A DNA stretch of 64,000 nucleotides from Polychytrium aggregatum (taxonomy: Eukaryota > Chytridiomycota > Chytridiomycetes > Polychytriales): contig NW_026516318.1 in the NCBI RefSeq assembly GCF_025602895.1, positions 1-64,000 of the forward strand, written 5' to 3'. Of the stretch, positions 1 to 27,570 are shown one piece after another. Position 1 is the first letter of the stretch. Each line of letters starts with the position of its first letter. The translations under genes were made by a program, and so were the position numbers. Below the pieces are notes generated by a model, which was not told the origin of the DNA, did not search any database, and was given only the letters and a program-made list of their open reading frames with translations.

Positions 1-1597
1 CGTCGTCAAGCACGGCAAGGACGAGCTCCAGCTCAAGTGTCCCCAGGCCCTCGAGGACGGACCCTGCCCCGGCCAGATGTCGGCCTTCCAGTTCTGGGCC
101 CACATGAGCCGCACCACCAAGGAGTCCCGCAAGCTGTTTGTGGATGCGTTCTCGGACAAGTTCAAGGAGAACTTCCACACCAAGTGCGGCCTCAAGACCA
201 TGGACAAGCAGCGCGCCGTCCCCCGTGGTGCCTCTGAAGGCGCCCCTCGAGCAGCCCCTGCTTCCACTGCTGACCCCGTCGATCCAGCTCGTCGAGCTGT
301 TGATGCTGTTGGCACTGCGTCCCCTGTCCCCAAGGCCAGGCCCGTCCTTCCGCCCCGACCCGTCGTCAAGGCCAAGACCCCTCCTCCGTCCCAGGCTCCC
401 GTCCCTGCGATGAAACCCGAGGAGGCCCTCGCTATCCTCAAGCGAGAGGCTGACCGGGTGCAGTCCATCCTGTTCGAGGCACTCGTGGCCGACAACATGG
501 ATGCTGCCACCAAGGCCATGGTCCAGAAGATCGCCAAGTCCAATGTGGCAATCAGCCGTGCCACGGAGCAGCTCCGCAAGTCTGTTGCCAACAAGACTGC
601 CACCCCCAAGACCCAGTCCCCCGGTTCCAAGACCCAGTCCTCCGGCTCCCTCCCTGGCTCTGCCCCTGTTTCCGCCCCGTCTCCCTCGTACAAGGCCGCT
701 CTCTTGAAGAACGTTCGGGAGGCCGAGAGCCGTGTCGGCCGCATGTCCGAGGCCAGCCAGCTCGACGAATGGAAGAGGATGCTGACCACCGGCCGAATGC
801 CAGGCTCCTCCAAGCCGATCCAGCCCAACCAGCACCGCCAGCCAGTCCTTGTCCCCGGGACGGTCGCCAACTCTGAGCTCCGGAACGACAAGTTCAGGGA
901 GGCCGTCACCAACATGGACTGGCTGTACGTCGAGGGCATCCGCTGTGGCGACCTCGGCAGTGTCCGCCGCAACCTCAAGCGATGCGGCATCGACACCAGG
1001 GAGTTGGCCGAGATCAACTTCCCTGAGGCCACGGTCATGGAGGTCCTTGTCCGCGACAAATCCAACAAGGCCGACCTTGGTGCCCGTCTGGAGTCGCTGT
1101 CGTCCACACATGGCAGGGTCAGGGTCGTACCGGCCTACGACGTCATCCATGGTCTCAAGCACCATGGACTGGCCCTGTCCCGATCCGATGCCATCAAGAA
1201 CTTTATGGCAAAGTCCCTCCGCCAGGCAGCCAAGGCCAAGACCGCCCCTGTCCGCCGCTGCATCCAGATGCGCATCCCCGAGGAGTACCGCGACGAGTAC
1301 GACTCGCTCCTCAAGAAGGCCCTATCCGGCAAGGAGGTCAAGCGGGCGGACATCACCGCCGTCCCCAAGGTCCCTGGTTCTGCCGCTGCCGCTGCCTCGT
1401 CGTCTGCCTCTGCCGCTGCCGCTACCGCTGCCCCTGCCGTTGTCGTTGCTGTCGCTGCTGCTGCTGCCCCCGCCGCTGGTGCCTCGTCAAAGCCCAGCAA
1501 GCCTCACCCCGCCTACAGAGTCCCGCTGTCCGTCATGGACACTGACTCTGAAGGAGAGGGCCCCCGGGCCAGCAGCAGCGCTGCACGACTCCAATGA
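1..1597 (+). CDS. Family-1 ORF1 protein, copy A (5'-partial)
   Basis: This is the C-terminal two thirds of the ORF1 (gag-like, RNA-binding) protein of the telomeric LINE. The frame is open from base 2 to a TGA at 1595-1597, and the true start lies outside the window. Visible parts are a cysteine-bearing segment around AFQFWAHM, a proline-rich linker, and a conserved block near 920-1330 (EGIRCGDLG, then HGLKHHGLA, then VRRCIQMRIP) shared with family 2. An Ala/Ser-rich low-complexity run lies at about 1378-1490. There are no CCHC knuckles. The stop overlaps the ORF2 start as ATGA. The matching protein in copy B is 761 aa. The function is inferred from position and architecture. Confidence 0.88.
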   Translation, partial: VVKHGKDELQLKCPQALEDGPCPGQMSAFQFWAHMSRTTKESRKLFVDAFSDKFKENFHTKCGLKTMDKQRAVPRGASEGAPRAAPASTADPVDPARRAVDAVGTASPVPKARPVLPPRPVVKAKTPPPSQAPVPAMKPEEALAILKREADRVQSILFEALVADNMDAATKAMVQKIAKSNVAISRATEQLRKSVANKTATPKTQSPGSKTQSSGSLPGSAPVSAPSPSYKAALLKNVREAESRVGRMSEASQLDEWKRMLTTGRMPGSSKPIQPNQHRQPVLVPGTVANSELRNDKFREAVTNMDWLYVEGIRCGDLGSVRRNLKRCGIDTRELAEINFPEATVMEVLVRDKSNKADLGARLESLSSTHGRVRVVPAYDVIHGLKHHGLALSRSDAIKNFMAKSLRQAAKAKTAPVRRCIQMRIPEEYRDEYDSLLKKALSGKEVKRADITAVPKVPGSAAAAASSSASAAAATAAPAVVVAVAAAAAPAAGASSKPSKPHPAYRVPLSVMDTDSEGEGPRASSSAARLQ

Positions 1598-3933
1598 ATC
1601 CACACCCCTCGCAGGGAGGCGGCAGGGCCCAGACATCCCTGACCGTCGCTTCCTTCAATGTCTGTGGCATCAACGTCAACGACGTTGAACTCAAGAACCT
1701 CATCGACACCAACGACATCGACTTTGTCGGTGTCCAAGAAACCCTCGCCGACCTCGAACCCCGCAGCCCTCTCTGTGGCTATGCCGTCAAGGTCCCTGGT
1801 CCCCGTTGCCGCGCCGGTAGAGGCATCGCCATCCTCTACAACCCGGCCAGGATCGACCCGCACGACTTCACCAACATTGAAGTCAGCGACAAGGGCGACG
1901 CCATGTGGGTGACATACAAACACGTCATCCACATCGGCAACTTCTACCTGTCCCCGAGCCTCAAGCTGGACGACTACCGCGAGGCCCTCCAGTCGATCCA
2001 CACCAAGGCCGCCCTCCCCGACGCCCAGGTCATTGTGGTGGGTGACTTCAATGCCCACCTCAGTGCCCTGAGCGGACTGCCCACGCCGCTCCGTGGCAGG
2101 GAGAAGATCCTCGAGGACACTGTCTCCCGCGCCGGTCTCCGCGTTGTGCCTCCAGCTGTGATCCCGACCCACACCCGGCAGCGGGGTCCCAGCTGGACAA
2201 CGATCGACTACATCTTTGTGTCGCATCGCCAGGCCAACAACGACCCGCTGCTGCAGGTCGACACTGCCGGTGCCTTCCGTGGCCAGTCCGACCACTTCCC
2301 CATCTGGGCGACTCTGCGGGTACAGCCAAAGTACTACCCAAAGGTCGACCAATGGCAGTGGAAGATCGCCCAGCTCGAGGATCCTGCCGTCCGCGCCCAG
2401 TACCTCTTGGCGCTGCTGGACGAGCGCGAACGCGGTCTGCAGCGCATCCAGGCTGCACTCCGGCCAATCTCAAGGGGATCGGTCATTCCGATCTCGGAGA
2501 GTGCGGCCCAGGACTGCATCGACCGCGCCTGGTCCATCATGATCGCCCTGATCACCACCGCTGCCGACTCCACCATCGGCAAGGCTTCCATCAAGACCGT
2601 CTGGAAGGACCCGGCCCTGATCCCCGAGATGCGGCAGCTTCGCGAGAGGCGCCGCGATCTCATCTACCAGCTCAAGTTGCCCGGGCTCTCCCTCCGCGTC
2701 GCCGAGGACAAGCGCGCCGAACTCCGCGCTGTCCGCAAACAAGAAAAGAACCTCATCGTCCAGTCCCGCCGAGCAGCCGAGACCCTGGCCATGAACAAGC
2801 TGCACTCCCTCAACGCTTCCGAGGTCGCCAAGTCCCTGGCCGCCATGAAGAAGCGCAAGGAGCTCGACGACGCCTTCCACTTTGACAACTCGGACGAGGC
2901 CCTCGAGCGACTTGTGGTCCACTACGGCAAGGTCTCCTCGCACTCCCAGGACACCCCCGGTGCCGCCTTTGACCGGACCGTCGGCCCAAGACCCCTGGAC
3001 ACTGTTCCGCGCCTGCTCCCCGAGGACCGCTCCATTCCCCGATTGTCGTCGGACGAGGTGGCCGATGCCATCGTCAAGTCCCCCAAGCGCAAGTCTTCCG
3101 GCCCGGACAAGATCAAGGCCGAGATGCTGCACCCTGTCGCTCCCGTGGTCGCTCCCTGGCTCCGGGCCATCCTGCTGGCCGCCCTCAAGGCCTCCGTCGT
3201 CCCGACCGAGTGGAACACTGTCCTGATCCACCCGGTCTACAAGAACAAGGGTTCGATCCTCGATCCGGCCATGTACCGGCCCATCGGGTTGACCCAGGTC
3301 CTCCGCAAGATCGCCGAGCGAGTCCTGCTGCCGTTCCTCACCCGCGAGATCGGCATCATGGACATTGCCCAGGGAGGCTTCCGCCCGGACCGAGGCACCC
3401 TCGACCAGGTGTACTCGCTCGACGCTCTTGTCCGCATGAACAAGATCCGCGACGACGAGTACAGCCTGGTCTTCCTCGACATCAAGGCCGCCTACGACAC
3501 TGTCTGGCGGGAGCGCCTCTGGGACAAGATCGCCACCCGAGGTGCTGGTCCGGTCGCCGTCGGGGTCCTCAGGGCCATGTTCGACCGCACTCTTGTCCGC
3601 GTCGCCAGCAAGGGCCGCACGTCGCAGCCTGTGTGGCTGCAGAAGGGTCTCATCCAAGGCTCGGTCCTGAGTCCCCTTCTGTTCAGTGCCCACATTGACG
3701 ACCTGCCTGGACTGCTCCGAGCCGAGGACGGACTTGTGCTTGCCTCGAGTCGCCACCACCGTCTCCGGGTCAACTCGCTCTGGTTTGCCGATGACGGTGT
3801 CCTCATCTGTCCGGCTGGCCGCACCCAGGCCATGCTGGATATCTGCGAACGCCACAGCATCGACAACCGGTACCGCTTCTCGCCTCCCAAGTGCGAGGTG
3901 CTGTACTCGGCCTGCAACGTCGACCAGCTCCAT

Positions 3934-4160
3934 TGTCATGAACCGAGTTTCCTTGCCTTGTATCTTGCCTAGTTATCTTGCCTTGTCCTTGAAATGAACT
4001 TTGTATTTTTAGTATCCTAAGCCTTGGATCTAGAATAAAACTTTGGCTTCACACTTGACACTCTGTGTCCCAGTCCAGTCCCCGCTCCTCTCCCTACGTT
4101 CGAGTCTTGCATTAGGACTCTTGCGCGCTTCCCTGCTTGCCCCGTTGTCCAGTCTTGACA
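3934..4160 (+). repeat. 5' LTR of the deleted Ty3-type element
   Basis: This 227-bp repeat starts TGTCATGAAC, ends GTCTTGACA and has an AATAAA near 4034. It has a direct copy at 6769-6995. Confidence 0.95.
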
Positions 4161-4232
4161 CTTGGCAAGACCTTCAACAACCCCCCACTTGCCCAGCTTT
4201 TGTCCCCGTTCCCTTCGCTATCTCTTTTACCA

Positions 4233-5471
4233 ATGGCTTCCCCTTCTGGCCTTTCCGAGCCCGAGCTCCAGGCCATCCGTGCGGTCATTATCCAGTCCGC
4301 CGAGAACGCCCGTTCTCTCCAGGACTTTTCCAAGTTCCTCCACGATCAGGATGATGCGCTCAACCGCATCACCGATCGTATGGACCAGGTCCTGGCTCGC
4401 CGTGAAGAGGATGTCCGCCAAGTTGTCGCCGCCAGTGTCCAGGAGGCCCTCCGCAGCTACCAGGCCCAGCTACCTCCTCCAGTTCCTGCTCCCGCTCCGA
4501 TCCGTCGCGCAGGTCGCCCCTACTTCGGCGTACCTGACGACGTCGATGATCCTGCCCAAGACCCCGAGGATCACTCTGCTGGTCGCAACTCTGCCACCAG
4601 GCAGATAGGTCCTCCCGACCGCTTCTCTGGTAAGGACCCGAGCCGCTGCAATGCCTTCCTCTCGCATTGCAGACTGGCCTTCGTGTCCAACCCTCCCCTC
4701 TTCCAGACTGAAAGGGATAAGGTGTTTTACGCCTTATCCTATCTCGATGGTACTGCTGCAGACTACATGCAGCCGTACATCGATCAGTTGGAGAGAGACC
4801 CCGAGTGCTCTCCCCCTGCCATCCGTGACTTTGCCGGTTTCTCCGAGTGGCTCCGTGCTGCCTTTGGCCAGGTCCAGCCCACCATCGCCGCTGCTCGCGA
4901 GATGGTCAGGCTTTACCAAGTCACCTCCGCCGCCGCCTATGCCGCCGAGTACCGCCGCCAAGCCGTCCACCTCGTCACTTGGTCCCAAGACCCTCTCATG
5001 TTCCACTTCGAGAGTGGACTCAAGCCCTCGGTTCAAGATGAACTCTCCCGCCGCTCCTTCGACAACCTCGAAGATCTCATGCAAGCGGCGATCGCCATCG
5101 ACAACCGCCAGGAGGACCAACGCTCCCGCCGTCCCAACCACCGCTCCGCTCCTGCTCCTGCTCCTGCTCGTCCGGCTCCTCTCCCTTTCCGTCCGGCTCC
5201 TCGTCCCTTCGCTCCTGCTCCTCCTCCTCGCCCCGCTCAAGCCTTCAACGTTCCCCAGCCCATGGACCTCAGCCAGGCTTCCGCTCGCAGGCTGACCGCC
5301 GAGGACAAGGCCGCCCTCCGTGCTGCTAATCGTTGCTTTTATTGCAAGCAGGAAGGGCACATTGCCCCTCGCTGCCCCAATAAGGCATCCTCCCGCTTGG
5401 CTGCCATCGATGCTTCTTTGGCTGTCGTTGATGTGAATAAACTTGACGACCAGGAAAACTTCTCTGCCTAG
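4233..5471 (+). CDS. gag: Gag protein of the deleted Ty3-type element
   Basis: This is a retrotransposon capsid/nucleocapsid protein of 412 aa from the ATG at 4233 (MASPSGLSEPE). An in-frame ATG at 4137 lies inside the LTR and is less likely. The central region has the usual Ty3-type gag fold signatures (FSGKDPSRCNAFL; the block around AAFGQVQPTIAA). A proline/alanine-rich stretch follows, then one zinc knuckle, RCFYCKQEGHIAPRCP (C-x2-C-x4-H-x4-C), near the C-terminus. The pol frame is -1 relative to gag and overlaps from 5447. The gag is intact, so this copy could still supply Gag. Confidence 0.9.
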   Translation: MASPSGLSEPELQAIRAVIIQSAENARSLQDFSKFLHDQDDALNRITDRMDQVLARREEDVRQVVAASVQEALRSYQAQLPPPVPAPAPIRRAGRPYFGVPDDVDDPAQDPEDHSAGRNSATRQIGPPDRFSGKDPSRCNAFLSHCRLAFVSNPPLFQTERDKVFYALSYLDGTAADYMQPYIDQLERDPECSPPAIRDFAGFSEWLRAAFGQVQPTIAAAREMVRLYQVTSAAAYAAEYRRQAVHLVTWSQDPLMFHFESGLKPSVQDELSRRSFDNLEDLMQAAIAIDNRQEDQRSRRPNHRSAPAPAPARPAPLPFRPAPRPFAPAPPPRPAQAFNVPQPMDLSQASARRLTAEDKAALRAANRCFYCKQEGHIAPRCPNKASSRLAAIDASLAVVDVNKLDDQENFSA

Positions 5472-6757
5472 AAAAGGTCGGAGGAGCTTTCCTAGGCGTC
5501 AATCATGTCATAAATCTTCCTCCTGTAAATGTCTCCACGGTAAATCACTCTTCTGCCTTTTGCCATCTTGCCCCCGTCACCATTGCCACCGTTTCCACCG
5601 CTCTTGCTTCTTCGTCTTCGCCTCCCGAGCCTGACATCCAACGTCAGCCCTCCCTCGCTGTGACTCTGCTGTGCGGTCCAGAGTCCATACGGGCAACCGC
5701 CATGATCGATACCGGCGCGGTTACTTCGTTTATGGACACTGGATTCGCCGCAACCCACGCTCTCCCCACCTTTGAAACTTCTTTCGTCATCACTCTTGCC
5801 GATGGTTCTTCGATGGAGTCTAGTCTTGGAGTTTGTGTTTCTATGATCACAGGCATCAGCCACTATGAACAAATCTCGTTCGCGCTGATTCCCTTGGCTT
5901 CATACCCGATCATCTTGGGTATGGATTGGATCAAGAAACACAAACCCTACTTTGACTGGCACCATGACTCTATTTTCTTGCCTTGCACCTCTATCCACAG
6001 TTTGGCCTCCCCGTTCTCTCCCGAGCCACAGTCCTCTAGGTCCAGCCCTGCCGAGTCCCCTGCTGAGGTCCCCGCCGAGCCTGCCGTGTCCCTGCCCGAG
6101 TCCAAGATTGTTCCTGCCAAGTCCCCAGCCGAGTCCCCAGCCGAGCCCGAGATCCTCCCTGCCTTGCCTCCTGCCGTGCCCAAGCCCAGTCCTGCCTTGC
6201 CTCCTGCCGTCCCAAAGACCAAGACCAAGACCCAGTCCCTGCCCAGCGTCAGCCTGATCGGCAGCATCCCCTTCCAGCACGCCGTCCAGAAGGAAGGCCT
6301 GGAAGTGTTCCTCTTGGATGCTGCCCGAGTCCTGTCCCTCTGCTCCGTCGACGCTGGAGCCAAGCCCAAGGCCGAGCCCTCTGTCCCCTCCAAGTACTCG
6401 TCCTTTGCCAAGGTGTTTTCCAAGTCCGAGGCCGACAAGCTCCCCCAGCACCGCCCTTACGACCACACGATCCCGTTGGTCGAAGGTGCGTCTCCGTCGT
6501 TTGGGCCCGTCTACAACCTCTCCAAGCCGGAGATGGACGCCCTCCACACCTACATCCAAGAGAACCTCTCCAAGGGTTTCATCCGCCGTTCCGAGTCCCC
6601 TGCCAGTGCCCCAGTTCGCCGAGTTCGTTTAAGGTGTCTGCATACCAGTCTGGAGGTTGCCGGTTCGAAACCGATGCTGACACTGAATTTCGGAAAAGCC
6701 CGAGCTGGGGTGCCGTTCATGTTCCAGTCCTATCGAGCCATTATGGCTGACCTATAA
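5447..6757 (+). pseudogene. pol: Truncated pol: protease plus start of reverse transcriptase
   Basis: The frame opens inside the gag end, -1 relative to gag. It encodes an aspartic protease (AMIDTGAVTSF near 5700, later IILGMDWI), a long Pro/Ala/Ser linker, and the first RT residues (YDHTIPLVEGA, NLSKPEMDAL, GFIRRSESPASAPV). At about 6612, where RT should continue with its LFVKKK-type motif, the sequence switches to unrelated DNA that ends at a stop just before the polypurine tract. The rest of RT, RNase H and integrase are missing (the chromovirus pol at 15126 is 1310 aa for comparison). The protein is presumed nonfunctional as a polymerase. Confidence 0.88.
6616..6690 (+). other. tRNA-like segment at the pol deletion junction
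   Basis: The stretch GCCGAGTTCGTTTAAGG resembles a tRNA D-arm/A-box. About 35 bp on, GGTTCGAAACC matches the pol III B-box/T-loop consensus. A CAT lies where an anticodon might be. The anticodon stem and acceptor stem do not pair well, so this is not called as a tRNA gene. It sits exactly where RT-coding sequence is lost and could be a tRNA-primed or template-switch scar. Confidence 0.4.
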
Positions 6758-6768
6758 GGGGGAGATAG

Positions 6769-6995
6769 TGTCATGAACCGAGTTTCCTTGCCTTGTATCT
6801 TGCCTAGTTATCTTGCCTTGTCCTTGAAATGAACTTTGTATTTTTAGTATCCTAAGCCTTGGATCTAGAATAAAACTTTGGCTTCACACTTGACACTCTG
6901 TGTCCCAGTCCAGTCCCCGCTCCTCTCCCTACGTTCGAGTCTTGCATTAGGACTCTTGCGCGCTTCCCTGCTTGCCCCGTTGTCCAGTCTTGACA
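6769..6995 (+). repeat. 3' LTR of the deleted Ty3-type element
   Basis: This is a direct copy of the LTR at 3934-4160, 227 bp, with no difference seen by eye. It is preceded by the polypurine tract and followed by the tccat duplication. Confidence 0.95.
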
Positions 6996-8392
6996 TCCAT
7001 CCCGCCAAGCTGTACGGCACCGAGCTGCCCAAGGTCCTCCAGTTCCGCTACCTCGGTGTCATGGTCGACATTGACGGATTCCGCCCGGACCTCCAGTTCG
7101 ACAAGCTCCTCCGCAAGGTCCACATGGTCACCGACACCGTGGTTGGACTCGGCATCACCCTCGGCAAGGTCTCGGCCAAGACCATCACCCAGGTCTACAA
7201 GACCTTTGTGCGGCCGACCCTCGAATACGGGATGGCCATGGACATCCCCGACCCAGCTCTGCGCGACCGCCTCGACGACGCCCAGATGACGGCCCTCCGC
7301 ACCATGTTCCGCGTCGGCCCCGGCACTCCCGTCGGTGCCATGCACCTCAACTGCGGCCTTCCCAAGATGTCGGTCCGTGTCAAGATGCTGGCCCTGCAGA
7401 ACTGGGCCCGCTGGGACGACCAAGTCTCTGACGGCGACAAGATGCTGTCGATGATCCTGCGCAACAAGATCATTGCGCCCTACCACCCCGACCAGTTCCT
7501 CGGCCAAGGAGTCCGAGCCGATCCGCACTGGGCCATGGTGGTCCGCCGACAAGAGGCCGACCACTCCCTCACGGCCACGGAGATCTACCGAGGCAAGACC
7601 CGACACCAGCCGCCGCCGCCCGGACCGCCCCGACCCCAGCCCGTCCCGATCAAGACCCTCATCTTCGAGGACCACATGAAGAACGGCTTCGACCGCTCCA
7701 AGCAGCTCACCGCCGCCTGCACCCCGTCGACCAAGATGTCGGGACTCTGGGAGGCTCGCGGGTACCAAGGATCCATGATCATGCTCATGTTCATGGTCCG
7801 ATGGCGACTCGGTGCTCTCCCAGGCCACTTCAGATTTGGCTACCGCAAGTGCAAGAACCTGGCTCGACACGGATCCGGGATCGACTTGACCAGGACCCAC
7901 GCACAGCAGTGTGTGGATCCGCATCAAGTCCTGGTCCGCAAGGTCGCAGCCCTCAAGACGGCCCACCCGACTTGGGTGGAAAGTGGTATAGCCGGAGTGG
8001 GACCAGTGGACAAGCTGCTGGACCTGCTCAGTTTCGATCGCACTCCCCCTCGCAGTCGCACCCCTCCCGCACTTGGATCACTTGCTGCTCATGTACCCGC
8101 TCCCCGCACTGCCTTCCGAGCATTCGCACTTGGTGCACACCCAGCACCACCACCCACTCCCACACCCAGTGTAGTCCCACCCTTGCAGTCTCTCCCTGCA
8201 CCCTCATCACAGCGTAGTATAGTGTCAGCACTTGTCATTCCTCCACCCCGACCCCCCCTCGATCCTGCTGTTCCCTTGTGGGAACTGCTCGAAAATGTGT
8301 TCACCCGCTTGGTCTCAGACCTTGTGGGCAGCTGAGGCAGCACTAGGCTGCAACAGGAGTAAATAGGCTTGCCTGTGTACTCAACGTGCCGG

Positions 8393-8422
8393 GGTACCAA
8401 CCTGTTGGACCTGATGGCTTGT
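8393..8422 (+). promoter_or_regulatory. Family-1 3' UTR hairpin followed by TGATGGCTTGT
   Basis: GGT-a-CCAA / loop CCTG / TTGG-ACC can fold as a hairpin with one bulge (8393-8411), directly followed by TGATGGCTTGT (8412-8422), about 28 nt before the poly(A). The same structure recurs at 8597-8626 and 20459-20488. Family 2 has a hairpin of different sequence in the same place, followed by the same 11-mer. By analogy with stringent-type LINEs it may be the 3' end recognised by the reverse transcriptase; this is inference. Confidence 0.5.
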
Positions 8423-8466
8423 CTTCTTGAATAAAGTTGACTATAGTAACAAAAAAAAAAAAAAAA

Positions 8467-8667
8467 TCCTGCTGTTCCCTTGTGGGAACTGCTCGAAAAT
8501 GTGTTCACCCGCTTGGTCTCAGACCTTGTGGGCAGCTGAGGCAGCACTAGGCTGCAACAGGAGTAAATAGGCTTGCCTGTGTACTCAACGTGCCGGGGTA
8601 CCAACCTGTTGGACCTGATGGCTTGTCTTCTTGAATAAAGTTGACTATAGTAACAAAAAAAAAAAAA
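8467..8667 (+). mobile_element. 5'-truncated family-1 3' end (188 bp plus poly(A))
   Basis: 8467-8654 matches copy A 8263-8450: the last ORF2 codons and the whole 3' UTR. A 13-A tail follows at 8655-8667. Its truncated 5' edge is joined directly to the poly(A) of copy A, and its own tail runs into (CCTAA)5. It is a dead-on-arrival copy that was later capped by copy A. Confidence 0.95.
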
Positions 8668-8700
8668 CCTAACCTAACCTAACCTAACCTAACCCTGACA
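8668..8700 (+). repeat. Interstitial telomere-like (CCTAA)5 ending in CCCTGACA
   Basis: Five perfect CCTAA units occupy 8668-8692, then CCCTGACA (8693-8700), lying between a LINE poly(A) and the 5' end of copy B. On the complementary strand this reads TGTCAGGG followed by (TTAGG)5. A telomeric origin is inferred from repeat type and context; the organism's telomere repeat is not known from this window. Confidence 0.8.
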
Positions 8701-8710
8701 CATCGAGTTC

Positions 8711-8847
8711 TCTGCTCCTGCCGCACCTATCCTGCTCCTGCTGCACCTGTCCTGCTCTTGCTGCACCTGTCCTGCTCTTGCTGCACCTGTCCTGCTCTTG
8801 CTGCACCTGTCCTGCTCCTGCTGCACCTGTATTGCTCTTGCTGCACC
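8711..8847 (+). repeat. 20-bp tandem repeats in the family-1 5' leader
   Basis: Seven imperfect units of a 20-bp motif (consensus CCTGCTCTTGCTGCACCTGT) start at about 8711, 8731, 8751, 8771, 8791, 8811 and 8831; the last is partial. They lie between the telomeric block and the ORF1 ATG at 8956. Tandem units at a LINE 5' end often carry the internal promoter; that role here is inferred. Confidence 0.9.
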
Positions 8848-19058: not shown

Positions 19059-19067
19059 GTGTGGGAG

Positions 19068-19376
19068 TGTAGGAGATGGTATCTCCGACGCTGTGCTGCG
19101 CGTACTGCGCGTACTGCGCGGCGCAGTGGGTCGTGACCTGTGCTGCGCTTTGCGTTTTCACGCACCGCAGGCAGGCCACCGCAGGGTATACCTGCGGGTT
19201 GCCCCCGTTCCCCCCGTTTGTCTGGAGTTCGGTTTTATCGTGAATAAACGTAAGTGCTCCCCGAGCTCACCCGTCCGCTAGAGTAGCCTAGCACCGCCCT
19301 GTTCTGCCCCGTCCTGTCTTGTCTTGTACCCCCTCCCTCCCCGTCTTGCCCCAACGTCCCAGTAGTGGACGTTACA
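19068..19376 (+). repeat. 3' LTR of the chromovirus
   Basis: This direct copy of the left LTR (309 bp) is preceded by a short purine-rich tract after the pol stop. Confidence 0.95.
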
Positions 19377-20531
19377 CCGCGTCGGCCCGGCACTCCGTCG
19401 GTGCCATGCACCTCAACTGCGGCCTTCCCAAGATGTCGGTCCGTGTCAAGATGCTGGCCCTGCAGAACTGGGCCCGCTGGGACGACCAAGTCTCTGACGG
19501 CGACAAGATGCTGTCGATGATCCTGCGCAACAAGATCATTGCGCCCTACCACCCCGACCAGTTCCTCGGCCAAGGAGTCCGAGCCGATCCGCACTGGGCC
19601 ATGGTGGTCCGCCGACAAGAGGCCGACCACTCCCTCACGGCCACGGAGATCTACCGAGGCAAGACCCGACACCAGCCGCCGCCGCCCGGACCGCCCCGAC
19701 CCCAGCCCGTCCCGATCAAGACCCTCATCTTCGAGGACCACATGAAGAACGGCTTCGACCGCTCCAAGCAGCTCACCGCCGCCTGCACCCCGTCGACCAA
19801 GATGTCGGGACTCTGGGAGGCTCGCGGGTACCAAGGATCCATGATCATGCTCATGTTCATGGTCCGATGGCGACTCGGTGCTCTCCCAGGCCACTTCAGA
19901 TTTGGCTACCGCAAGTGCAAGAACCTGGCTCGACACGGATCCGGGATCGACTTGACCAGGACCCACGCACAGCAGTGTGTGGATCCGCATCAAGTCCTGG
20001 TCCGCAAGGTCGCAGCCCTCAAGACGGCCCACCCGACTTGGGTGGAAAGTGGTATAGCCGGAGTGGGACCAGTGGACAAGCTGCTGGACCTGCTCAGTTT
20101 CGATCGCACTCCCCCTCGCAGTCGCACCCCTCCCGCACTTGGATCACTTGCTGCTCATGTACCCGCTCCCCGCACTGCCTTCCGAGCATTCGCACTTGGT
20201 GCACACCCAGCACCACCACCCACTCCCACACCCAGTGTAGTCCCACCCTTGCAGTCTCTCCCTGCACCCTCATCACAGCGTAGTATAGTGTCAGCACTTG
20301 TCATTCCTCCACCCCGACCCCCCCTCGATCCTGCTGTTCCCTTGTGGGAACTGCTCGAAAATGTGTTCACCCGCTTGGTCTCAGACCTTGTGGGCAGCTG
20401 AGGCAGCACTAGGCTGCAACAGGAGTAAATAGGCTTGCCTGTGTACTCAACGTGCCGGGGTACCAACCTGTTGGACCTGATGGCTTGTCTTCTTGAATAA
20501 AGTTGACTATAGTAACAAAAAAAAAAAAAAA

Positions 20532-20594
20532 CCTAACCTAACCTAACCTAACCTAACCTAACCTAACCTAACCTAACCTAACCTAACCCTGACA
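20532..20594 (+). repeat. Interstitial telomere-like (CCTAA)11 ending in CCCTGACA
   Basis: Eleven perfect CCTAA units occupy 20532-20586, directly after the copy B poly(A), then CCCTGACA at 20587-20594. The same terminal octamer ends the block at 8668-8700, although the sequences that follow differ. Confidence 0.82.
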
Positions 20595-20930
20595 ACACCG
20601 TCCTTCGCCTAGTAAACCAGTCGTTACCCGCTCACTCCAGTCCGTCCGCTCTCGTCCAGTCCCCAGTCCTGTTACAGAGATCCCGGAGAGGAGCTCCCAT
20701 GGCCAGAGAGAAAGGGTCCCCGAGCGGGACCTGGAGACATGCGAGTCCCTGTGGGACCTCTTGGAGGAAGTGTTCACCCGCATGGCTCGCCGTGTGGGCT
20801 GGAGAGTCGGCGAGAGCCGCAACAGGGGCGTGTGAGCCTGCTTGTACGCCCACTGCCGGGTACCGCATGGTACTGATGGCTTGTTGAATATTCCTGAATA
20901 TACAACTATTGTAAACAAAAAAAAAAAAAA
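20595..20930 (+). mobile_element. Short family-2 derivative: 82-bp leader joined to the 240-bp 3' end
   Basis: 20677-20916 matches the family-2 3' end at 27008-27247, followed by a 14-A tail (20917-20930). Upstream, 20595-20676 has no match elsewhere in the window and could be the family-2 5' leader, giving a 5'-leader-plus-3'-end element with the coding region deleted. The tail joins directly to the truncated ORF1 of the next family-2 copy. Confidence 0.8.
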
Positions 20931-20951
20931 CAGACCATTGATGTTGGAGGC

Positions 20952-22880
20952 ATGAATAGCCTGCTTTGGAGCACGGTTACAAGCAAGCTCCAGGGCACAG
21001 TCGAGTGCAGAAAGTGCAAGAAGACCTCGAACACCCCATGGAAGACTGTCAAGCATGGCAAAGACGAAGTCCACCTGAGATGCCCACGAAAGGAGGGCAC
21101 GACTCCGTGCCAAGGACAAATGACGGCCTTTCAGTTCTGGGCGCACATGCGCCACGCGACCAGGGAGTTCAGACAATCATTCGTGAAGTCCTACACTGAC
21201 CGGTTCAAAGACCGGTTTCACACCAAGTGTGGTTTTGAAGTGGATGGCTATGACAGAGAGACCGAAAGTCCAATGGCGTCCCAAGCAGTTGAATCCACCA
21301 TGGAGATTGTCAAGGCCACGCCAACCACACCCAGAACCACTTCCCAGGCAGTGGGAACCGCTACCGGAATCATACGAGCGACCCGCCACAACAGAGACGT
21401 CGACCAGGGGACTGAGCCAACAAGCACCAGACCCCAAGTCGATGAGAGGGGCCCCATGGCAAAGGAGCATCCAGCCGTCCCACAGGTAGTGGCAAGCACT
21501 AAAGCTGCTGTTGCTAGAAAGAGCACTGAGGTCAGCCTGGCCGAGGCACTCGAAGCAGCCAAGACGAGCGCCGACCTGATTCAGCAACTCATCTTCGAGA
21601 CGCTGATTGAGGATTGGATGGATGCAAGAACCAAAGCACTCATCCACAAGATTGCCAAAGCAAACGAAGCCGTGCGCAAGGCCCGAGACCAAGCCCAGAT
21701 GATCTCAAAGCAGATGGATGCAACCCAGGCCCGAGGCACCAAGCACCAAGCCCAAATTGGGCAGACCCATCCGAACCAGGCCCACATTGCGCAGGACCAA
21801 GGCAAGCCAGTCACGTACAAGGCCGCCTTGATGAAGAACATCGCTACCACAGAGCGAATCATCGGTCGTATGGACGAGACCCAGCAAATCCAAGAATGGA
21901 AGAGGGTCCTCACGACAGGTAGAATGCCTGGCACGTCCAAGACAATCCAGCCAAGAACCACCAACAACCCTGTGGTGGTCCCAGGAAACATCCCCAACGA
22001 CGAGCTCAAGAACGAAAAGTTCAAGGAGACCGTGACCAACATGGAGTGGATGTACATTGAGGGGATACGATGTGGTGATCTGGGTCGCATCCGCCGCAAC
22101 CTGAAAATGTGCGGACTCGACACAAGGGAGTTTGCTGAACTCAACTTCCCCGAGGCTTCGGTGATGGAGGTCCTCCTTCAAGACAAAACAAAGAAAAACC
22201 GGATTGCAGCCGAGTTTGAGGCGTTATCCTCAGAACACGGCAAGGTCAGGGTCATTCAAGCCTATGATGTGATCAACGGTTTCAAGCACCACGGACTCAG
22301 TCTCCCAAAGACCGAGGTAATCAAGACCTTCATCGTCAAGTCGGTCCGACAAGCGGCAAAGGCAAAGTCGACCCCTGTGCGTCGATGCATTCAAATGAGG
22401 GTGCCCGAACAATACCGGCAAGAGTACGACGAACTTCTCGTCAGAGCCATGTCGGGCAAGGAAATCAAGAAAGATGATGTCAAGGCGGTGCCCCAGGCCA
22501 TGCCCCGGACAGTGTCCCAGGCAGTGTCTCAGACTCCTACAGAAGGGAGGCCCCCAAACCTGACCGCAGAACGACGAGGCGGTAACAGCTCGAACTTGCT
22601 CAGTGAACCAGTTGAAAGTGGCAGTCGGACCCTTGCCAATGGACGAGCTGGCCGGAAAGCAAGTGCAGCCGTCCAGGCACCGAGTGGCGCAGCACCGCGC
22701 ATGGCCATGACCGGACGACACGCGTCATCCGGGCCAACCATGACGACTGATCGGGTCATGAGTACACAACAGACCGAGAGCCAAAGACCCAACCTCGAGC
22801 ACGAGGTGATGGATATGGACTCGTCGAGCGATGGGGAGGGGCAGACGCCCAGCAGAAATGCACTCCCCATCCGATTATGA
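20952..22880 (+). CDS. Family-2 ORF1 protein (N-terminally truncated)
   Basis: The frame is open from the truncation point at 20931; the first Met is at 20952, which aligns well inside the family-1 protein (the NNQLWMAV region), so this is not the native start. It retains the Cys cluster CRKCKKTS...LRCP...TPCQGQM, the AFQFWAHM block, a Gln/Thr-rich linker, and the conserved EGIRCGDLGRIRRNLK and VRRCIQMRVPEQYR segments. It ends in an acidic tail (MDMDSSSDGEG). The stop overlaps the ORF2 start as ATGA, as in family 1. It lacks the roughly 200-residue N-terminus. Confidence 0.85.
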   Translation: MNSLLWSTVTSKLQGTVECRKCKKTSNTPWKTVKHGKDEVHLRCPRKEGTTPCQGQMTAFQFWAHMRHATREFRQSFVKSYTDRFKDRFHTKCGFEVDGYDRETESPMASQAVESTMEIVKATPTTPRTTSQAVGTATGIIRATRHNRDVDQGTEPTSTRPQVDERGPMAKEHPAVPQVVASTKAAVARKSTEVSLAEALEAAKTSADLIQQLIFETLIEDWMDARTKALIHKIAKANEAVRKARDQAQMISKQMDATQARGTKHQAQIGQTHPNQAHIAQDQGKPVTYKAALMKNIATTERIIGRMDETQQIQEWKRVLTTGRMPGTSKTIQPRTTNNPVVVPGNIPNDELKNEKFKETVTNMEWMYIEGIRCGDLGRIRRNLKMCGLDTREFAELNFPEASVMEVLLQDKTKKNRIAAEFEALSSEHGKVRVIQAYDVINGFKHHGLSLPKTEVIKTFIVKSVRQAAKAKSTPVRRCIQMRVPEQYRQEYDELLVRAMSGKEIKKDDVKAVPQAMPRTVSQAVSQTPTEGRPPNLTAERRGGNSSNLLSEPVESGSRTLANGRAGRKASAAVQAPSGAAPRMAMTGRHASSGPTMTTDRVMSTQQTESQRPNLEHEVMDMDSSSDGEGQTPSRNALPIRL

Positions 22881-25800
22881 ATCCAGCCCAGACAACAGGA
22901 GACGGCAGAGTTCAGACATCTCTGACCGTTGCATCCTTCAATGTCTGTGGCTTGGCCAACAACCATACTGCTGTGAAGGACCTCATAACGAACATGAAGA
23001 TTGATTTTATCGGTCTTCAAGAAACTTTACTCAAAACAAAAGATCGAAATCCCCTCAGAGACTACACCATCACTAACCCAGGAACGCAGGGAGAAGCTGG
23101 GAGAGGAATGGCGTTCCTCTATAACCCAGCGACAGTCGACCCACGAGACATATCCAACGTGGAGGTCCGCAACGACGGAGCCACCATGTGGTTCAAGTAC
23201 AAGGACAACATCCACATAGGGAACTTTTACTTAAGCCCCAGCATGAAGATCGAAGCATTCAGGGCCGCCATCAAGTCCATACAGCAGAAGGCGTCGGACC
23301 CCGACACCCAGGTGATCGTTGTCGGGGACTTCAACACCAGACTGGCTGCACTCCAGGGGAGACCGTCGGCCCCCAGGAACAAGGAGAAAGCACTCCTGGA
23401 CACCCTGAGCCGAGCCCGGATGCGAGTCGTTGCCCCAGAAATCATCCCGACCCACACCCGGGAACGAGGCGAGAGTGCTTCAACCATCGATTACATCTTC
23501 GTTTCAAAGACCTTGGCCAGCAGCGACCCTCGGCTCCAAGTCGACGCTGCTGGAGCCTACCGAGGAAGGTCCGACCACAAGGCCATCTGGGCGACCCTGA
23601 GGATAGAGGTCACACACTATCCCAGGGTCGACCAATGGCGGTGGAAGATTGGCAGGCTCAAGGACCGCGAGGTCAAGGCCCAATACGTCCAGCTGTTTAA
23701 TGACCGCCAAGTGGAGGGAACATTGACAATCACGACGGCCCTCAAACCAATCCTGGGAGAGCCTCAACATCAGATCTCGGAGCGCGGAGCACAGTTCGCC
23801 ATGAACAAAGCCTGGGAAGCACTCACCACCATGGTGAACAACATTGCGGAACGAACCGTGGGAAAGTCGGAGATTCGACGCGTCACCCATGACATGTTAC
23901 ACAAGCCAGAGATCCGCCGATTGGCCAACATCCGACGCCAGCTGTGCCGACGACTGAAGAGGAAGGACATTGGAGACGAAGAAGCCAATGAGTGTAGAAG
24001 AGAGCTCAGTATGGCTCGGGCAAAAGAAGTGGCAGCACTCCGAACAGCAAGGAAGTCCCTCCATGACAAATTCCTCAGCAAGCTCCATAGACTCAACAGC
24101 TCAGAGTCAACAAAAGCCCTAGCCGCCGAGCAGAAACGCAGAGAGCTCGCGGATGCGTACCAGTTGGATAGTTCGGACGAGGCACTGGAACGACTAGTGG
24201 CCCACTACGGCTCGGTCTCGGCCCATAGCCGAGATACAGGAGAGCAGTACGACCGGACAACCAGACCGGCAGGGCCAGAGGGAACCCCCCGGCCTCTCAC
24301 TGAGGACCAGTACCTTCCACAATTCGACATCCAGGACATCATCGCGGCCATCCGGGCGTCCCCCAAGATGAAGGCCTGTGGGTCAGACAGAATCAAAAGC
24401 GAGTTGCTGCACCCAGTGGCACCGGTGCTTGCCGAGTGGCTCCAGATCATCATGAAGGCGGCGGTCAAAGCTTCGGTTGTCCCCGTGTCGTGGAACGAAG
24501 TGTTGATCCACCCCGTGTACAAAAACAAAGGATCAATACTTGACCCGGCAATGTACAGGCCAATCGGATTGACACAAGTGCTCCGCAAGATAGCGGAGCG
24601 CATCCTCCTCCCGTACCTCACAAAGGAAATTGGGACGATGGACATTGTCCAGGGAGGATTCCGACCAGGACGAGGCACGCTCGACCAGGTCTACTCCCTG
24701 GACAGCCTGATTCGGATGAAGAGGCTCCAAGGCTTGGAGTACTCCTTGGTGTTCCTGGACATCAAGGCGGCGTACGACACCGTCTGGAGGGAACGCCTGT
24801 GGGAAAAAATCAAAGATAGAGGAGCAAGCTCGACCGCACTCGGGATCCTCAAGGCGCTGTTTGATAGGACAATGGTGAGAGTCGCCAGCAAGGGACGTCG
24901 GTCAGAACCTGTGTGGCTCCAAAAAGGGCTCATACAGGGATCTGTACTGAGTCCCTTGCTGTTCAGCGCTTTCATCGATGACTTACCAGAGCTCCTGAGA
25001 CGGGGCACAACCAGCGCCGACGAAGACCTAGAGCTCTCAACCAGCACGGTGTCGACAATCAAGGTCAACTCGTTATGGTTCGCCGACGATGGAGTACTTG
25101 TCGCAAGTCCAGCTTCGACACAGAAGCTCCTGGATATATGCGAACGACACAGCACCGAAAACAGGTACAAGTTCGCACCAAGCAAATGCGAGATCATCCT
25201 CTCGACCAACTACCCCGCCGCGACAACCAAGGCCACTCTCTACGGAGAAGAGCTGCCGACGGCGAAAGAGTTCAAATACCTTGGAACGATCATCGACGCC
25301 AACGGGTTCCGAGTCGATCGACAAGTCGACCACCTGGTCGAGAAAGCCAACATGGCCGTGAAGAGCATCGTCAAGCTTGGAATCAGGCTCGGAGGAGCGT
25401 CTGCAAGGACCATCGTGAGAACTTACCGAGCCTTCATCAGGCCAAGGCTCGAATACGGCCTGGCACTGGACCTCCTACCCGAGGCACAGCAAGAACGAAT
25501 CGACAAGGTCCAGACAAATGCACTGAGGGCAATGTTCAGAGTCGGCCCTGGGACATCGGCCGGAGCCATGCATCTGAGCTGTGGACTGCCAAAACTGTCC
25601 ATGAGAATCAAGATCCTGACCTTCCAAACCTGGACGAGATGGGAAGACGCGTCCTCCGATCACACCAAGCTCATAGCACTGATCATGAGAAACACAATCA
25701 GACACCCCCACCACCCCAACCAATTCCTTGGCTACCAAGTGATGGAAGACCCGTATTGGGTCAAACTAATGCGCAGACTAGACTCGGACCAAAGCCTAAC

Positions 25801-27166
25801 CGCAACCGAGGCCTTCCTGGGGAAGGAAGGAGCGCAACGGAAACCGACCAGCCCAGTCCCACGATCAACACCAGAACAGATCGAGATCGTCACGGGACTC
25901 ATCATGGTCCCACTATCCACCTCGCAACGACGCAGACGGCTGCTCGGGAACGGGCTCTCCGGGATCACGAGTAGTGAGGAAGGATCCCACAACCGAACAA
26001 ACCGACAGAATACCACCACGATGAATGAGGACGCTGTCACCACACCCATCAAGGAGCTCATGCTCACTGAGCATATGAGAACAGCGTTTCGAGGGAATCA
26101 ACAGCTGACGGCGGCATGCACACCGTCAACCCAGATGTCAGGTCTCTGGATGGCGGAAGGGTACCAAGGATCCAAACCCATCCTCGAGCTCATGGTTCGG
26201 TGGAGACTCGGAGCCTTCCCGGGCCATCACACAGGCCGGCTTCAAATATGCCGACAATGTTCGACAAACGGAGCCACCGTGGAGTTCAACCGCACCCACG
26301 CACAGCGGTGCATCGACCCAAGAGGGATCCTCCCGAGGAAGGTGCGCCAACTTCAACGATCACACCCAGCATGGGTGGAGCCTCAGACCATCGGAGTGGG
26401 ACCAGTCGACAAGCTGCTGGACCTGATCACCTTTGAGCAACAGAAGGCAAGACAGAAGAACCACGAGGACACTGACGGTGGAGCGGATTGCAGGCCACCA
26501 CCAATCGTGTCCGACACCACGTCGGATGGGGAGACCAGCATTGACGAAGCAGTCTCGGATGACGACGGGGAGTCGCTCTGGTACCCACATCGAGAGGTGC
26601 TGGCACGACTGGAGCGACTCCGGCTGACCGACGACGACTCAACAGACCTGAGCTCCGAAATGAGCTCGGTGCCAGACTGGGAATTGAATCTGGAGAGAGA
26701 TCTGGACTTTTCCTTCCTCACCAACATCGACGACGACCTGCCCAGCCACGGATGGGATTGGCAGAGCGACCAGAGTGTCGACTTGCTCTCGAACACAACA
26801 CCAAGCATCGATCTGATCGACGATGCCGATCTGAGCCCGGACCTGGTCTCGGACGACGACCTCGGACTCGGAGACACACCGTTCCCAACGACCAGCAGGA
26901 GAGGCAGCCCTCCCCCCACACGGAGCAATGACAGAGTGACTGGAGTGCTGAGAGGCATGAGGCCACGACAGCGAACCCAACGAACAAAGCCGTGGATGGG
27001 CTTTGAGGAGATCCCGGAGAGGAGCTCCCATGGCCAGAGAGAAAGGGTCCCCGAGCGGGACCTGGAGACATGCGAGTCCCTGTGGGACCTCTTGGAGGAA
27101 GTGTTCACCCGCATGGCTCGCCGTGTGGGCTGGAGAGTCGGCGAGAGCCGCAACAGGGGCGTGTGA
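22877..27166 (+). CDS. Family-2 ORF2 protein: APE endonuclease-reverse transcriptase (1429 aa)
   Basis: This is the intact enzyme frame of the family-2 LINE. The endonuclease spans residues 1-240 (FNVCGLANN, GLQETLL, VVGDFNTRL, SDHKAIWA). The RT holds YRPIGLTQVLRKIAERI, QGGFRPGRGTLDQVYS, FLDIKAAYDTVWRERL, GLIQGSVLSPLLFSAF and FADDGVLV. After the thumb comes the YLGTIID block, then a Cys/His domain (ICRQC...THAQRC). A long acidic extension (about residues 1150-1380) is absent from family 1. The protein ends in LWDLLEEVFTRMARRVGWR, matching the family-1 C-terminal motif. No stop or frameshift interrupts it. Expression is doubtful because the 5' end is missing. Confidence 0.92.
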   Translation: MNPAQTTGDGRVQTSLTVASFNVCGLANNHTAVKDLITNMKIDFIGLQETLLKTKDRNPLRDYTITNPGTQGEAGRGMAFLYNPATVDPRDISNVEVRNDGATMWFKYKDNIHIGNFYLSPSMKIEAFRAAIKSIQQKASDPDTQVIVVGDFNTRLAALQGRPSAPRNKEKALLDTLSRARMRVVAPEIIPTHTRERGESASTIDYIFVSKTLASSDPRLQVDAAGAYRGRSDHKAIWATLRIEVTHYPRVDQWRWKIGRLKDREVKAQYVQLFNDRQVEGTLTITTALKPILGEPQHQISERGAQFAMNKAWEALTTMVNNIAERTVGKSEIRRVTHDMLHKPEIRRLANIRRQLCRRLKRKDIGDEEANECRRELSMARAKEVAALRTARKSLHDKFLSKLHRLNSSESTKALAAEQKRRELADAYQLDSSDEALERLVAHYGSVSAHSRDTGEQYDRTTRPAGPEGTPRPLTEDQYLPQFDIQDIIAAIRASPKMKACGSDRIKSELLHPVAPVLAEWLQIIMKAAVKASVVPVSWNEVLIHPVYKNKGSILDPAMYRPIGLTQVLRKIAERILLPYLTKEIGTMDIVQGGFRPGRGTLDQVYSLDSLIRMKRLQGLEYSLVFLDIKAAYDTVWRERLWEKIKDRGASSTALGILKALFDRTMVRVASKGRRSEPVWLQKGLIQGSVLSPLLFSAFIDDLPELLRRGTTSADEDLELSTSTVSTIKVNSLWFADDGVLVASPASTQKLLDICERHSTENRYKFAPSKCEIILSTNYPAATTKATLYGEELPTAKEFKYLGTIIDANGFRVDRQVDHLVEKANMAVKSIVKLGIRLGGASARTIVRTYRAFIRPRLEYGLALDLLPEAQQERIDKVQTNALRAMFRVGPGTSAGAMHLSCGLPKLSMRIKILTFQTWTRWEDASSDHTKLIALIMRNTIRHPHHPNQFLGYQVMEDPYWVKLMRRLDSDQSLTATEAFLGKEGAQRKPTSPVPRSTPEQIEIVTGLIMVPLSTSQRRRRLLGNGLSGITSSEEGSHNRTNRQNTTTMNEDAVTTPIKELMLTEHMRTAFRGNQQLTAACTPSTQMSGLWMAEGYQGSKPILELMVRWRLGAFPGHHTGRLQICRQCSTNGATVEFNRTHAQRCIDPRGILPRKVRQLQRSHPAWVEPQTIGVGPVDKLLDLITFEQQKARQKNHEDTDGGADCRPPPIVSDTTSDGETSIDEAVSDDDGESLWYPHREVLARLERLRLTDDDSTDLSSEMSSVPDWELNLERDLDFSFLTNIDDDLPSHGWDWQSDQSVDLLSNTTPSIDLIDDADLSPDLVSDDDLGLGDTPFPTTSRRGSPPPTRSNDRVTGVLRGMRPRQRTQRTKPWMGFEEIPERSSHGQRERVPERDLETCESLWDLLEEVFTRMARRVGWRVGESRNRGV

Positions 27167-27190
27167 GCCTGCTTGTACGCCCACTGCCGG

Positions 27191-27215
27191 GTACCGCATG
27201 GTACTGATGGCTTGT
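27191..27215 (+). promoter_or_regulatory. Family-2 3' UTR hairpin followed by TGATGGCTTGT
   Basis: GTACC (27191-27195), loop GCAT, GGTAC (27200-27204), then TGATGGCTTGT (27205-27215). The same site occurs in the short copy at 20860-20884. The stem sequence differs from family 1, but the position and the following 11-mer are shared. Confidence 0.5.
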
Positions 27216-27570
27216 TGAATATTCCTGAATATACAACTATTGTAAACAAAAAAAAAAAAAAAAGCAAACCACCAGCCTTACTCGTCTCTGAGAGCTTCCA
27301 TTTCTGACCCCTGGTATTGCTGGCTGGCTCTGGCATTAGGTGTTGGCTTTGCCAACCAGGACATTTTACAATCATCATTGCAGCTCTCTATCCCTTGGGG
27401 ACCTGTTTGTGGAGGGACGGCGATGTCAAGTTTTGCCGAACTCATCCATCCAGTGACAGTTTGGAATCTGCAGCTCCGACTTCCATGTCCAGACTTGTGC
27501 TGGCGTATGCCTGTGGCATTACTTCCTCAGGCTCCTACTGTCGTGCGTGGCGTATCCGAGGGATTGGCGT

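Follow-up and report, generated by a model that had tools for sequence, protein, structure and literature searches.

The left end of the DNA that we analysed, a stretch of 64,000 nucleotides of Polychytrium aggregatum (the window), is built of stacked LINEs of two families, A and B, which we consider to be probably telomeric LINEs, reverse-transcribed from T-ended eroded tips and then capped by telomerase. At the level of sequence, the location and orientation of the elements, their direct stacking, a T rule at their joints, telomere caps fused to A and a TERT gene were all established. The host belongs to Chytridiomycota, in agreement with the early-diverging fungus suspected in a previous reading of the DNA letters (the sequence-only reading).

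Base 1 of the window is the first base of contig C20 in a genome of 64.7 Mb. Bases 1–27.3 kb contain five LINE 3' ends of families A and B, arranged head-to-tail in one orientation with poly(A) inward (tract ends at 8466, 8667, 20531, 20930 and 27263; Table 1), and the CCTAA strand in the internal blocks runs left to right, as the sequence-only reading had described. The alternation of elements with (CCTAA)n blocks that it reported did not hold, since CCTAA was found at only two of the five joints, A1b/A2 (5 repeats) and A2/B1 (11 repeats), the joints A1/A1b, B1/B2 and B2/unique DNA being direct. Its five elements stood as five 3' ends, but B1 comprises 254 bp of B and about 84 bp of LTR, B2 is 5'-truncated and two LTR elements are inserted, and the observation was therefore confirmed in part. 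No telomere was seen at base 1 of the window, the contig start falling within A1. A1 is interrupted by LTR element 1 and is 100% identical to A2 over 1–3933/9645–13577 and 6996–7332/13573–13909. A1b directly abuts the A1 tail at a site where intact A reads CTCGA/TCCTGC (slash, joint), and B2 likewise abuts the B1 tail at a site where a longer B copy reads GCAGCA/CAGACC. The two LTR retrotransposons, both of Ty3 type, make up about 8.5 kb of the 27.3-kb interval; in element 1 a Ty3-type capsid and protease were matched, and RT and integrase, looked for by domain match, were not found. The 84–88 bp after the 11-repeat block were considered as a 5' end of B and ruled out, the sequence being LTR; the same 84-bp LTR end also occurs in a different context at another locus (L053).

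Table 1. Features of the array at the left end of the window (positions in the window; A counts refer to the poly(A) tail).
Feature	Position	Strand	Remarks
LINE A1	1..8466	+	5' side lost to contig start (about base 951 of A); 16 A
LTR element 1, within A1	3934..6995	+	Two identical 227-bp LTRs; 5-bp duplication TCCAT
LINE A1b	8467..8667	+	Final 201 bp of A; 13 A
Internal telomere block	8668..8698	+	5x CCTAA + CCCTGA
LINE A2	8699..20531 (8699–13909 + 19377–20531)	+	Both ends kept; split by LTR element 2; 15 A
A2 ORF1	8956..11241	+	761 aa counted from ATG
A2 ORF2, N-terminal portion until LTR insertion	11238..13909	+	APE endonuclease, reverse transcriptase
LTR element 2, within A2	13910..19376	+	Identical 309-bp LTRs; Ty3-type pol, chromodomain
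Internal telomere block	20532..20592	+	11x CCTAA + CCCTGA
LTR 3' end	20593..20676	+	Final 84 bp, terminating TTACA; telomere block caps left side
LINE B1	20677..20930	+	3' end of B only; 14 A
LINE B2	20931..27263	+	5' truncation within ORF1; 16 A
B2 ORF2	22877..27166	+	Start is first ATG; APE endonuclease, reverse transcriptase
Start of DNA proximal to array	27264..27290	.	Joint without CCTAA

A and B are 66–71% identical in DNA, and both have two ORFs, a 3' poly(A), no LTRs and frequent 5' truncation. Their ORF2 contains an APE-like endonuclease (PF03372/PF14529) and RT (PF00078) in the same ORF, above the Pfam cut-off, which bears out the earlier assignment to two-ORF APE-type LINEs; a Pfam search with A2 ORF1 gave no match. 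An uninterrupted A copy lies on C170, the full A ORF2 of 1224 aa was found at L173, and one A copy carries both ORF1 and ORF2 intact. The solved structures nearest to B ORF2 were, ranked by score, human-type L1 ORF2 (85 bits) and then R2 (46 bits), and RT homologue searches returned mainly distant, unnamed proteins (identity 21–34%). Truncation points of A were distributed non-uniformly, 14 of 32 falling inside the last 1000 bp (KS p 0.005). G-quadruplex strand asymmetry is described for other telomeric retroelements (PMC10088271); counts of two-G motifs (antisense vs sense) were 69:6 for A, 17:14 for B and 42:3 for the Ty3 element, and the asymmetry was dropped as a hallmark of A/B because B is nearly balanced and the Ty3 element is skewed too.

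Across the genome, 123 of 203 A 3' ends and 30 of 30 B 3' ends could be placed, leaving 80 A 3' ends outside the mapped set, and contigs tend to break at repeats. Among mapped A/B 3' ends, 79 of 83 pointed inward on contigs of at least 100 kb; on those of at least 280 kb, all 27 contig ends bearing A/B were uniformly inward, and 51 of 56 mapped 3' ends were no more than 40 kb from a contig end, against an expectation of 6.6. An A copy at C112:710 kb and a B copy at C377:140 kb (about 145 kb to either end) were internal, as were, in a third family (C), 3 of the 8 copies mapped to long contigs, C46:456 kb and C397:829 kb among them. The expectation that copies lie only at contig ends thus holds for most, with these few internal copies of A, B and C as exceptions; the opposite pattern, many internal copies without CCTAA, was sought for A and B and was not what we found. 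The possibility of an assembly join was addressed by indirect means.

Exact CCTAA 100-mers occur 98 times in the genome, on five contigs and never more than about 0.3 kb from a tip (reversed control, 0), and (CCTAA)n is therefore the telomere repeat of the genome. At least 20 consecutive perfect CCTAA were present in five contigs, each time at a tip. In four of the five capped tips the repeats pass directly into an A copy, which is full-length on C239 but truncated on C39, C40 and C323; the fifth cap, on C112, adjoins other DNA, the nearest A 3' end being 9.1 kb inward. Caps have 51–76 perfect CCTAA units, and internal blocks are short, mostly about 5 repeats. Joints of poly(A)+CCTAACCTAA numbered 38 genome-wide vs 1 in the reversed control, and chance is therefore excluded. 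Blocks preceding full-length A almost all have five repeats, the terminal A copy on C239 has eight ahead of CCCTGA, and truncated A copies have 4.4–5.6; a fixed five-repeat leader in A RNA and one founder joint copied between ends are equally likely origins. TERT is present, with a Telomerase_RBD (RNA-binding domain) at C408:433538-434141 in three exons, and we infer that telomerase makes the caps.

Of 158 poly(A) tails read, 123 join non-telomeric DNA, often older A or B, and 35 are followed by CCTAACC; the predicted placement of copies beside (TTAGG)n thus applies to these 35, most joints being without CCTAA. The tails form 99 distinct joint classes. At exact in-element joints, base −1 of the joint in intact copies was A in 36 of 37 cases (null 0.363, p 3.5e-15), corresponding to T on the complementary strand (the T rule). 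The rule was tested where intact context existed: A stood at −1 in 48 of 52 joint classes with any such context, joints inside a Ty3 element (C46, C386) included, 43 of the 95 non-telomeric joint classes having no such context. Two exceptions were found in family C (C35:964053 and C78:20580). Base +1 was C in 21 of 36 joints vs a background of 0.40, resembling telomeric AA/CC; among ten flanking positions tested, the single departure beyond T at p<0.01 was a depletion of A at −4. Some tails abut Ty3 sequence or what looks like host coding DNA. Of the 59 tail-to-tail intervals placed, 48 were filled exactly by a single element, full or truncated, and its tail of 11–20 bases; these are not independent, because several are amplified copies. 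The sequence-only reading had put the chromosome end to the left and proposed that each poly(A) was joined to the then-current end; the inward orientation, the caps running into A, the tails joined directly to older elements and the T rule support this interpretation.

In the mechanism that we propose, A or B RNA would be reverse-transcribed with the 3' end of the tip-ward strand as the primer, and a single terminal T would be enough for pairing with poly(A). This T may sit in a short TTAGG tract, an eroded older LINE, an LTR element or host DNA. The product would become the new chromosome end, to which telomerase would add (TTAGG)n, often beginning with the variant TCAGGG. Repeated erosion and addition would pile up elements, some full and others 5'-truncated, and recombination between ends would copy and amplify segments. 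Erosion presumably precedes addition, as opposed to nicking by the element's own enzyme, and LINE addition may help to keep the ends long. Counted against this model are the family C exceptions to the T rule, the internal A, B and C copies, the C112 cap without adjoining A, and the APE endonuclease, kept by the elements yet superfluous for free-end priming.

The retained APE domain would have a function if the endonuclease nicked the tip-ward strand after T in the subtelomere, RT started there, and the distal fragment were lost so that the end was replaced. The T rule is also compatible with a nick 3' of T, and the modest enrichment of C at +1 would also fit. Such a route, however, needs loss of the distal fragment after almost every insertion, and the joints show no clear consensus apart from T; we regard it as unlikely. 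LINE enzymes are capable of template jumping, and an RT that moved midway along one RNA to the poly(A) of another via a single A, within one event, would account for the A at −1 at joints within A, B and C. The T rule was also seen within a Ty3 element, some tails are attached to Ty3 sequence or to DNA that seems to be host coding, and many copies are separated by telomere blocks, all of which make this explanation highly improbable.

Ordinary LINE-into-LINE nesting in subtelomeric heterochromatin, with no end chemistry, would draw on the gathering of transposons in subtelomeres described for many fungi (PMC12857005), and a nested insertion would likewise leave an interval of one truncated element proximally. 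Nesting predicts the 5' part of the older element distal to the newer copy, however, and this was absent on C39 and C40 read inward from the cap. When leftover 5' parts were sought in the fetched loci (at least 500 bases), none of 10 segment ends inside an element met an A or B copy (6 were short A/B cross-matches or repeat hits, 2 led into LTR element 2 and 2 into other DNA). The single orientation at 27 of 27 ends would also be left unexplained, and nesting is very hard to credit. Recombination between ends would fit the recurrence of the A1/A1b joint on C170 and C256, the C207 array, in which two truncated units alternate, and the 5178-bp spacing common to C182 and C374. That it spread most of the stacks, with little current retrotransposition and near-identity of copies possibly due to homogenisation, is nevertheless most improbable, as 99 distinct joint classes demand many separate joining events and intact ORFs persist.

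The stacks resemble those of known telomeric elements of the HeT-A, Zepp and MoTeR kind. HeT-A, TART and TAHRE of Drosophila form similar one-direction head-to-tail LINE arrays at ends, and TART and TAHRE, which carry an APE endonuclease, are believed to add themselves to the end with no nick being made (PMC5537684). Drosophila lacks telomerase, whereas P. aggregatum has TERT and TTAGG caps. Zepp of Chlorella vulgaris has tails that point toward the centromere. It is described as a telomere-accumulated LINE with nested clusters in a telomerase-type host, and is said to occur at the ends of new minichromosomes (PMC3446292, PMC10088271); its host, however, is a green alga, and the Zepp clusters of Coccomyxa are mostly internal, one per chromosome (PMC3446292). 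MoTeR of Pyricularia and FoTeR of Fusarium are likewise telomeric fungal LINEs with short internal telomere blocks, 5'-truncated copies and end-to-end amplification (PMC12857005, PMC8381367, PMC7367193), but their endonuclease is restriction-like and they fall with the CRE/SLACS elements, in contrast to the APE endonuclease, two ORFs and poly(A) of A and B; moreover, FoTeR 3' ends precede telomere repeats, whereas A/B joints are mostly direct element-on-element. TRAS and SART of Bombyx and Tribolium are APE LINEs whose hosts combine telomerase with (TTAGG)n telomeres (PMC5537684), but their insertion into the repeats is endonuclease-directed, whereas most A/B joints lie outside repeats. GilM and GilT of Giardia share the head-to-tail arrays, the subtelomere-telomere boundary and 5' truncation attributed to terminal erosion (PMC5537684), but have a CRE-type RT and a protist host (PMC10088271). 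Athena and other endonuclease-deficient Penelope-like elements are also end-oriented and 5'-truncated, and their 3' end carries a short telomeric tract (PMC5537684), but Athena lacks an endonuclease and A/B have APE.

Searches of the open-access journal literature turned up no description of telomeric LINEs from any chytrid, Polychytrium included, and within that scope the APE LINE version in a fungus would be new. The findings suggest that telomeric LINEs of fungi are not all of the kind seen in MoTeR and FoTeR, with a restriction-like endonuclease. How retrotransposons can take over from telomerase has long been debated, mostly on the evidence of flies that are already without it; P. aggregatum, a zoosporic fungus whose genome is public, has a telomerase gene and combines LINE stacks with telomerase-type caps at its chromosome ends, offering a natural case for studying two end-rebuilding routes side by side. 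The T rule, which concerns a single base, makes a precise and testable prediction about LINE priming at a chromosome end, and the stacks are a record of the order of addition. It is possible, and we put it forward tentatively, that a telomerase-bearing fungus routinely extends its ends with APE LINEs priming on nearly any T-ended tip, the LINEs buffering erosion and telomerase re-capping. If true, this would be the first APE LINE case in a fungus within the literature searched, and an extant intermediate between ends that depend on telomerase alone and the retrotransposon ends of Drosophila.

The window is positions 1–64,000 of contig C20 in the 64,678,306-base, 418-contig genome of Polychytrium aggregatum, a chytrid of the order Polychytriales, and its base 1 is the first base of that contig. 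In its first 27.3 kb, the tails of all five LINE 3' ends (A1, A1b, A2, B1 and B2) point right, bearing out the sequence-only reading of two families in one orientation. The alternation with CCTAA blocks claimed there held at two joints, where a LINE 3' tail meets the next DNA inward (A1b/A2 with 5 CCTAA and A2/B1 with 11, both closed by CCCTGA), and failed at the other three, which have no telomere block. A1 and A2 are identical over 3933 bp and over 337 bp, and 99.8% identical over 1157 bp with two gaps as the sole differences; each holds one Ty3-type LTR element, and in either element the two LTRs are identical to each other.

Features of the window
Feature	Window position	Description
A1		5' side cut off by contig start
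A1b		201 bp
A2		5' and 3' ends both present
B1		254 bp
B2		6.3 kb, 5'-truncated within ORF1
LTR element 1 (in A1)	3934-6995	Ty3-type capsid and protease matches; LTRs identical
Minisatellite in A 5' region	8712-8847	20-bp unit, 6.8 copies
Duplication flanking LTR element 2 (in A2)	13886-13909 and 19377-19400	24 bases; right copy two bases short
LTR element 2 (in A2)	13910-19376	Ty3-type
(CCTGC)n array	42879-43098	perfect, 44 copies
Host importin gene	~44.7-50.0 kb	~importin subunit beta-3; spliced roughly by eye

LTR element 1 gave no reverse transcriptase or integrase match and looks non-autonomous and recently moved. The duplication at LTR element 2 greatly exceeds that of LTR element 1 (5 bases), possibly through sequencing slips or unusual integration. 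The (CCTGC)n array differs from the telomere repeat. The importin is 95% identical to P. aggregatum importin subunit beta-3, the next matches being at 50%.

In ORF2 of both A and B, Pfam identified APE endonuclease and reverse transcriptase domains, with no family match in ORF1 of either. Both ORFs (ORF1 of 761 aa and ORF2 of 1224 aa, with a four-base overlap) are present in an A copy on C170 that no insertion interrupts, so family A may still be active. Of the 45 matches reported for the 202-bp A 3' end, from a scoring of 40 among 204 candidates, 42 were 100% identical. A third family, C (~65–72% like A, ~67–73% like B), is found in the same arrays. As with the minisatellite of the A 5' region, FoTeRs are reported to have variable tandem repeats upstream (PMC12857005).

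A search allowing two mismatches located 203 A 3' ends (109 forward, 94 reverse); B 3' ends numbered 30. Of these, 123 and all 30, respectively, entered the position analysis. Contigs of 100 kb or more carry 83 of the mapped ends: 79 have the tail inward (p = 4e-19, although members of one array are not independent), and 77 are no more than 40 kb from a contig end, against 24.1 expected. For the 56 ends on contigs of 280 kb or more, the counts are 53 inward and 51 within 40 kb, with 6.6 expected for the latter. The terminal placement proposed for other copies applied to most, with few internal, and all 27 element-bearing ends of these contigs were uniformly inward. Nearness to a contig end is weak evidence because contigs often break at repeats; such breakage leaves the common orientation unexplained. 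On contigs of 100 kb or more, the exceptions were the outward-pointing C28:132337 near an end, and C112:710318, C135:641314, C377:140191, C16:80741, C212:269513 and C374:61774, more than 40 kb from one. For the internal A copy at C112:710 kb, the joint leads into CCTAACCAGG, a Ty3 element lies ~0.4 kb upstream, and inspection by eye showed no target duplication. Eight full or partial family C copies (at least 99% identity, contigs of known length of at least 100 kb) comprised five near an end and inward (C279, C135, C40, C35, C224) and three internal (C46, C397, C377). The B-on-C stack in the interior of the 286-kb C377 could be an internalised end or a misjoin; MoTeR relics are described as internalised ends in part of PMC8381367.

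Uninterrupted stretches of 20 or more perfect CCTAA were seen on five contigs, each at the tip with the C-rich strand leaving it (left: C39, C112, C239; right: C40, C323). The C239 cap leads into a full-length A at its 5' end, those of C39, C40 and C323 lead into 5'-truncated A, and that of C112 meets other DNA, its first mapped A 3' end lying at 9.1 kb. These caps have 51–76 perfect units, far longer than the internal blocks (~1.4 to 11.4 repeats, mostly near five), and may themselves have lost length in the assembly. At the boundary between an element and a cap or internal block, CCCTG(A) is often the first repeat (A 5' ends, C40, C20, C112, C323, C212); other boundaries open with plain CCTAACC (C39, C38, C204, C182), and CCCTGA also occurs within 4 of 5 caps. 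From this we infer that telomerase began its synthesis on a foreign terminus. The genome encodes TERT: three exons spanning C408:433538-434141 hold its RNA-binding domain (best E value 6e-14), which none of the 14 control genomes gave.

The 158 A/B 3' joints read fell, by their first 20 bases, into 99 distinct classes, of which 4 (35 copies) begin CCTAACC, 39 fall within A or B and 56 elsewhere. Among 59 neighbouring pairs with a placeable intervening element, 48 intervals had the length of a single element, full or truncated, with its tail of 11–20 bases (several being copies of one amplified unit, on C207 and C79), so that tails are fused directly onto the next element's truncated 5' side, without any DNA between. 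Ten intervals were longer by 5.2–14.2 kb, and a further one by 33 kb; in four of the ten the excess was 5.2–5.5 kb, close to the length of the Ty3 insertion in A2. Nested insertion of a newer LINE into an older one, instead of end addition, would give the same one-element interval on the proximal side, but following the C39 and C40 stacks inward from the cap reveals no 5' remnant of an element, and none of 10 segments ending inside an element in the fetched loci runs into an A/B copy.

At exactly matched joints, the preceding base in the intact copy was A in 36 of 37 (p = 3.5e-15; probability 0.363 for a randomly placed joint in an intact copy, with As absorbed into the tail), one A alone being shared in 29. 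With any intact context elsewhere at 90% identity or more, it was A in 48 of 52, a count outside which 43 of the 95 non-telomeric classes fall for want of such context. It follows from this T rule that the joint is set where the tail of the newer RNA primes on a 3'-terminal T of the tip-ward strand, and not by the point at which synthesis of the older copy ended. The two direct element joints of the window, A1/A1b (CTCGA/TCCTG) and B1/B2 (GCAGCA/CAGACC), follow the rule, as do Ty3-element joints (C46, C386). Among the failures, C38:17370 is an alignment tie scored as such, C28:132376 is off by one base, and C35:964053 and C78:20580 (family C) look genuine.

End addition probably proceeds from an eroded end that primes LINE RNA, followed by telomerase capping. 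A chromosome end would erode into repeats or an older element and prime the RNA, the product becoming the new end; telomerase would cap it, and later exchange between ends would spread segments. Self-nicking, rather than erosion, may yield the primed end. In keeping with exchange between ends, the A1/A1b joint is also present on C170 and C256. C207 (L017–L024), a 32-kb contig, carries a long run of two alternating truncated A units (spacings of 2810 and 2955), suggestive of repeated copying from a single end; similar repeating truncated arrays are described for Pyricularia (PMC7367193). Units of 5178 bp lie head to tail, two on C182 (L013, L014; an A 3' end, ~four CCTAA repeats and other DNA) and four on C374. 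At C112:1450545-1453746 (L051), the DNA next to an A tail holds a 433-aa open frame that by eye looks similar to Sel1-type repeats and may be a host gene truncated when the chromosome end was lost.

Telomeric LINEs are known, from passages of PMC10088271 and PMC12857005, in flies, moths, beetles, Giardia, Chlorella, an anole and two ascomycete groups, and the chytrid stacks are a variant of these. The fungal cases found in the literature are of CRE type, with a different endonuclease from the APE type here. What is new is that, in a chytrid, LINEs of APE type form stacks on chromosome ends, with telomere repeats absent between most of them and telomerase still encoded.
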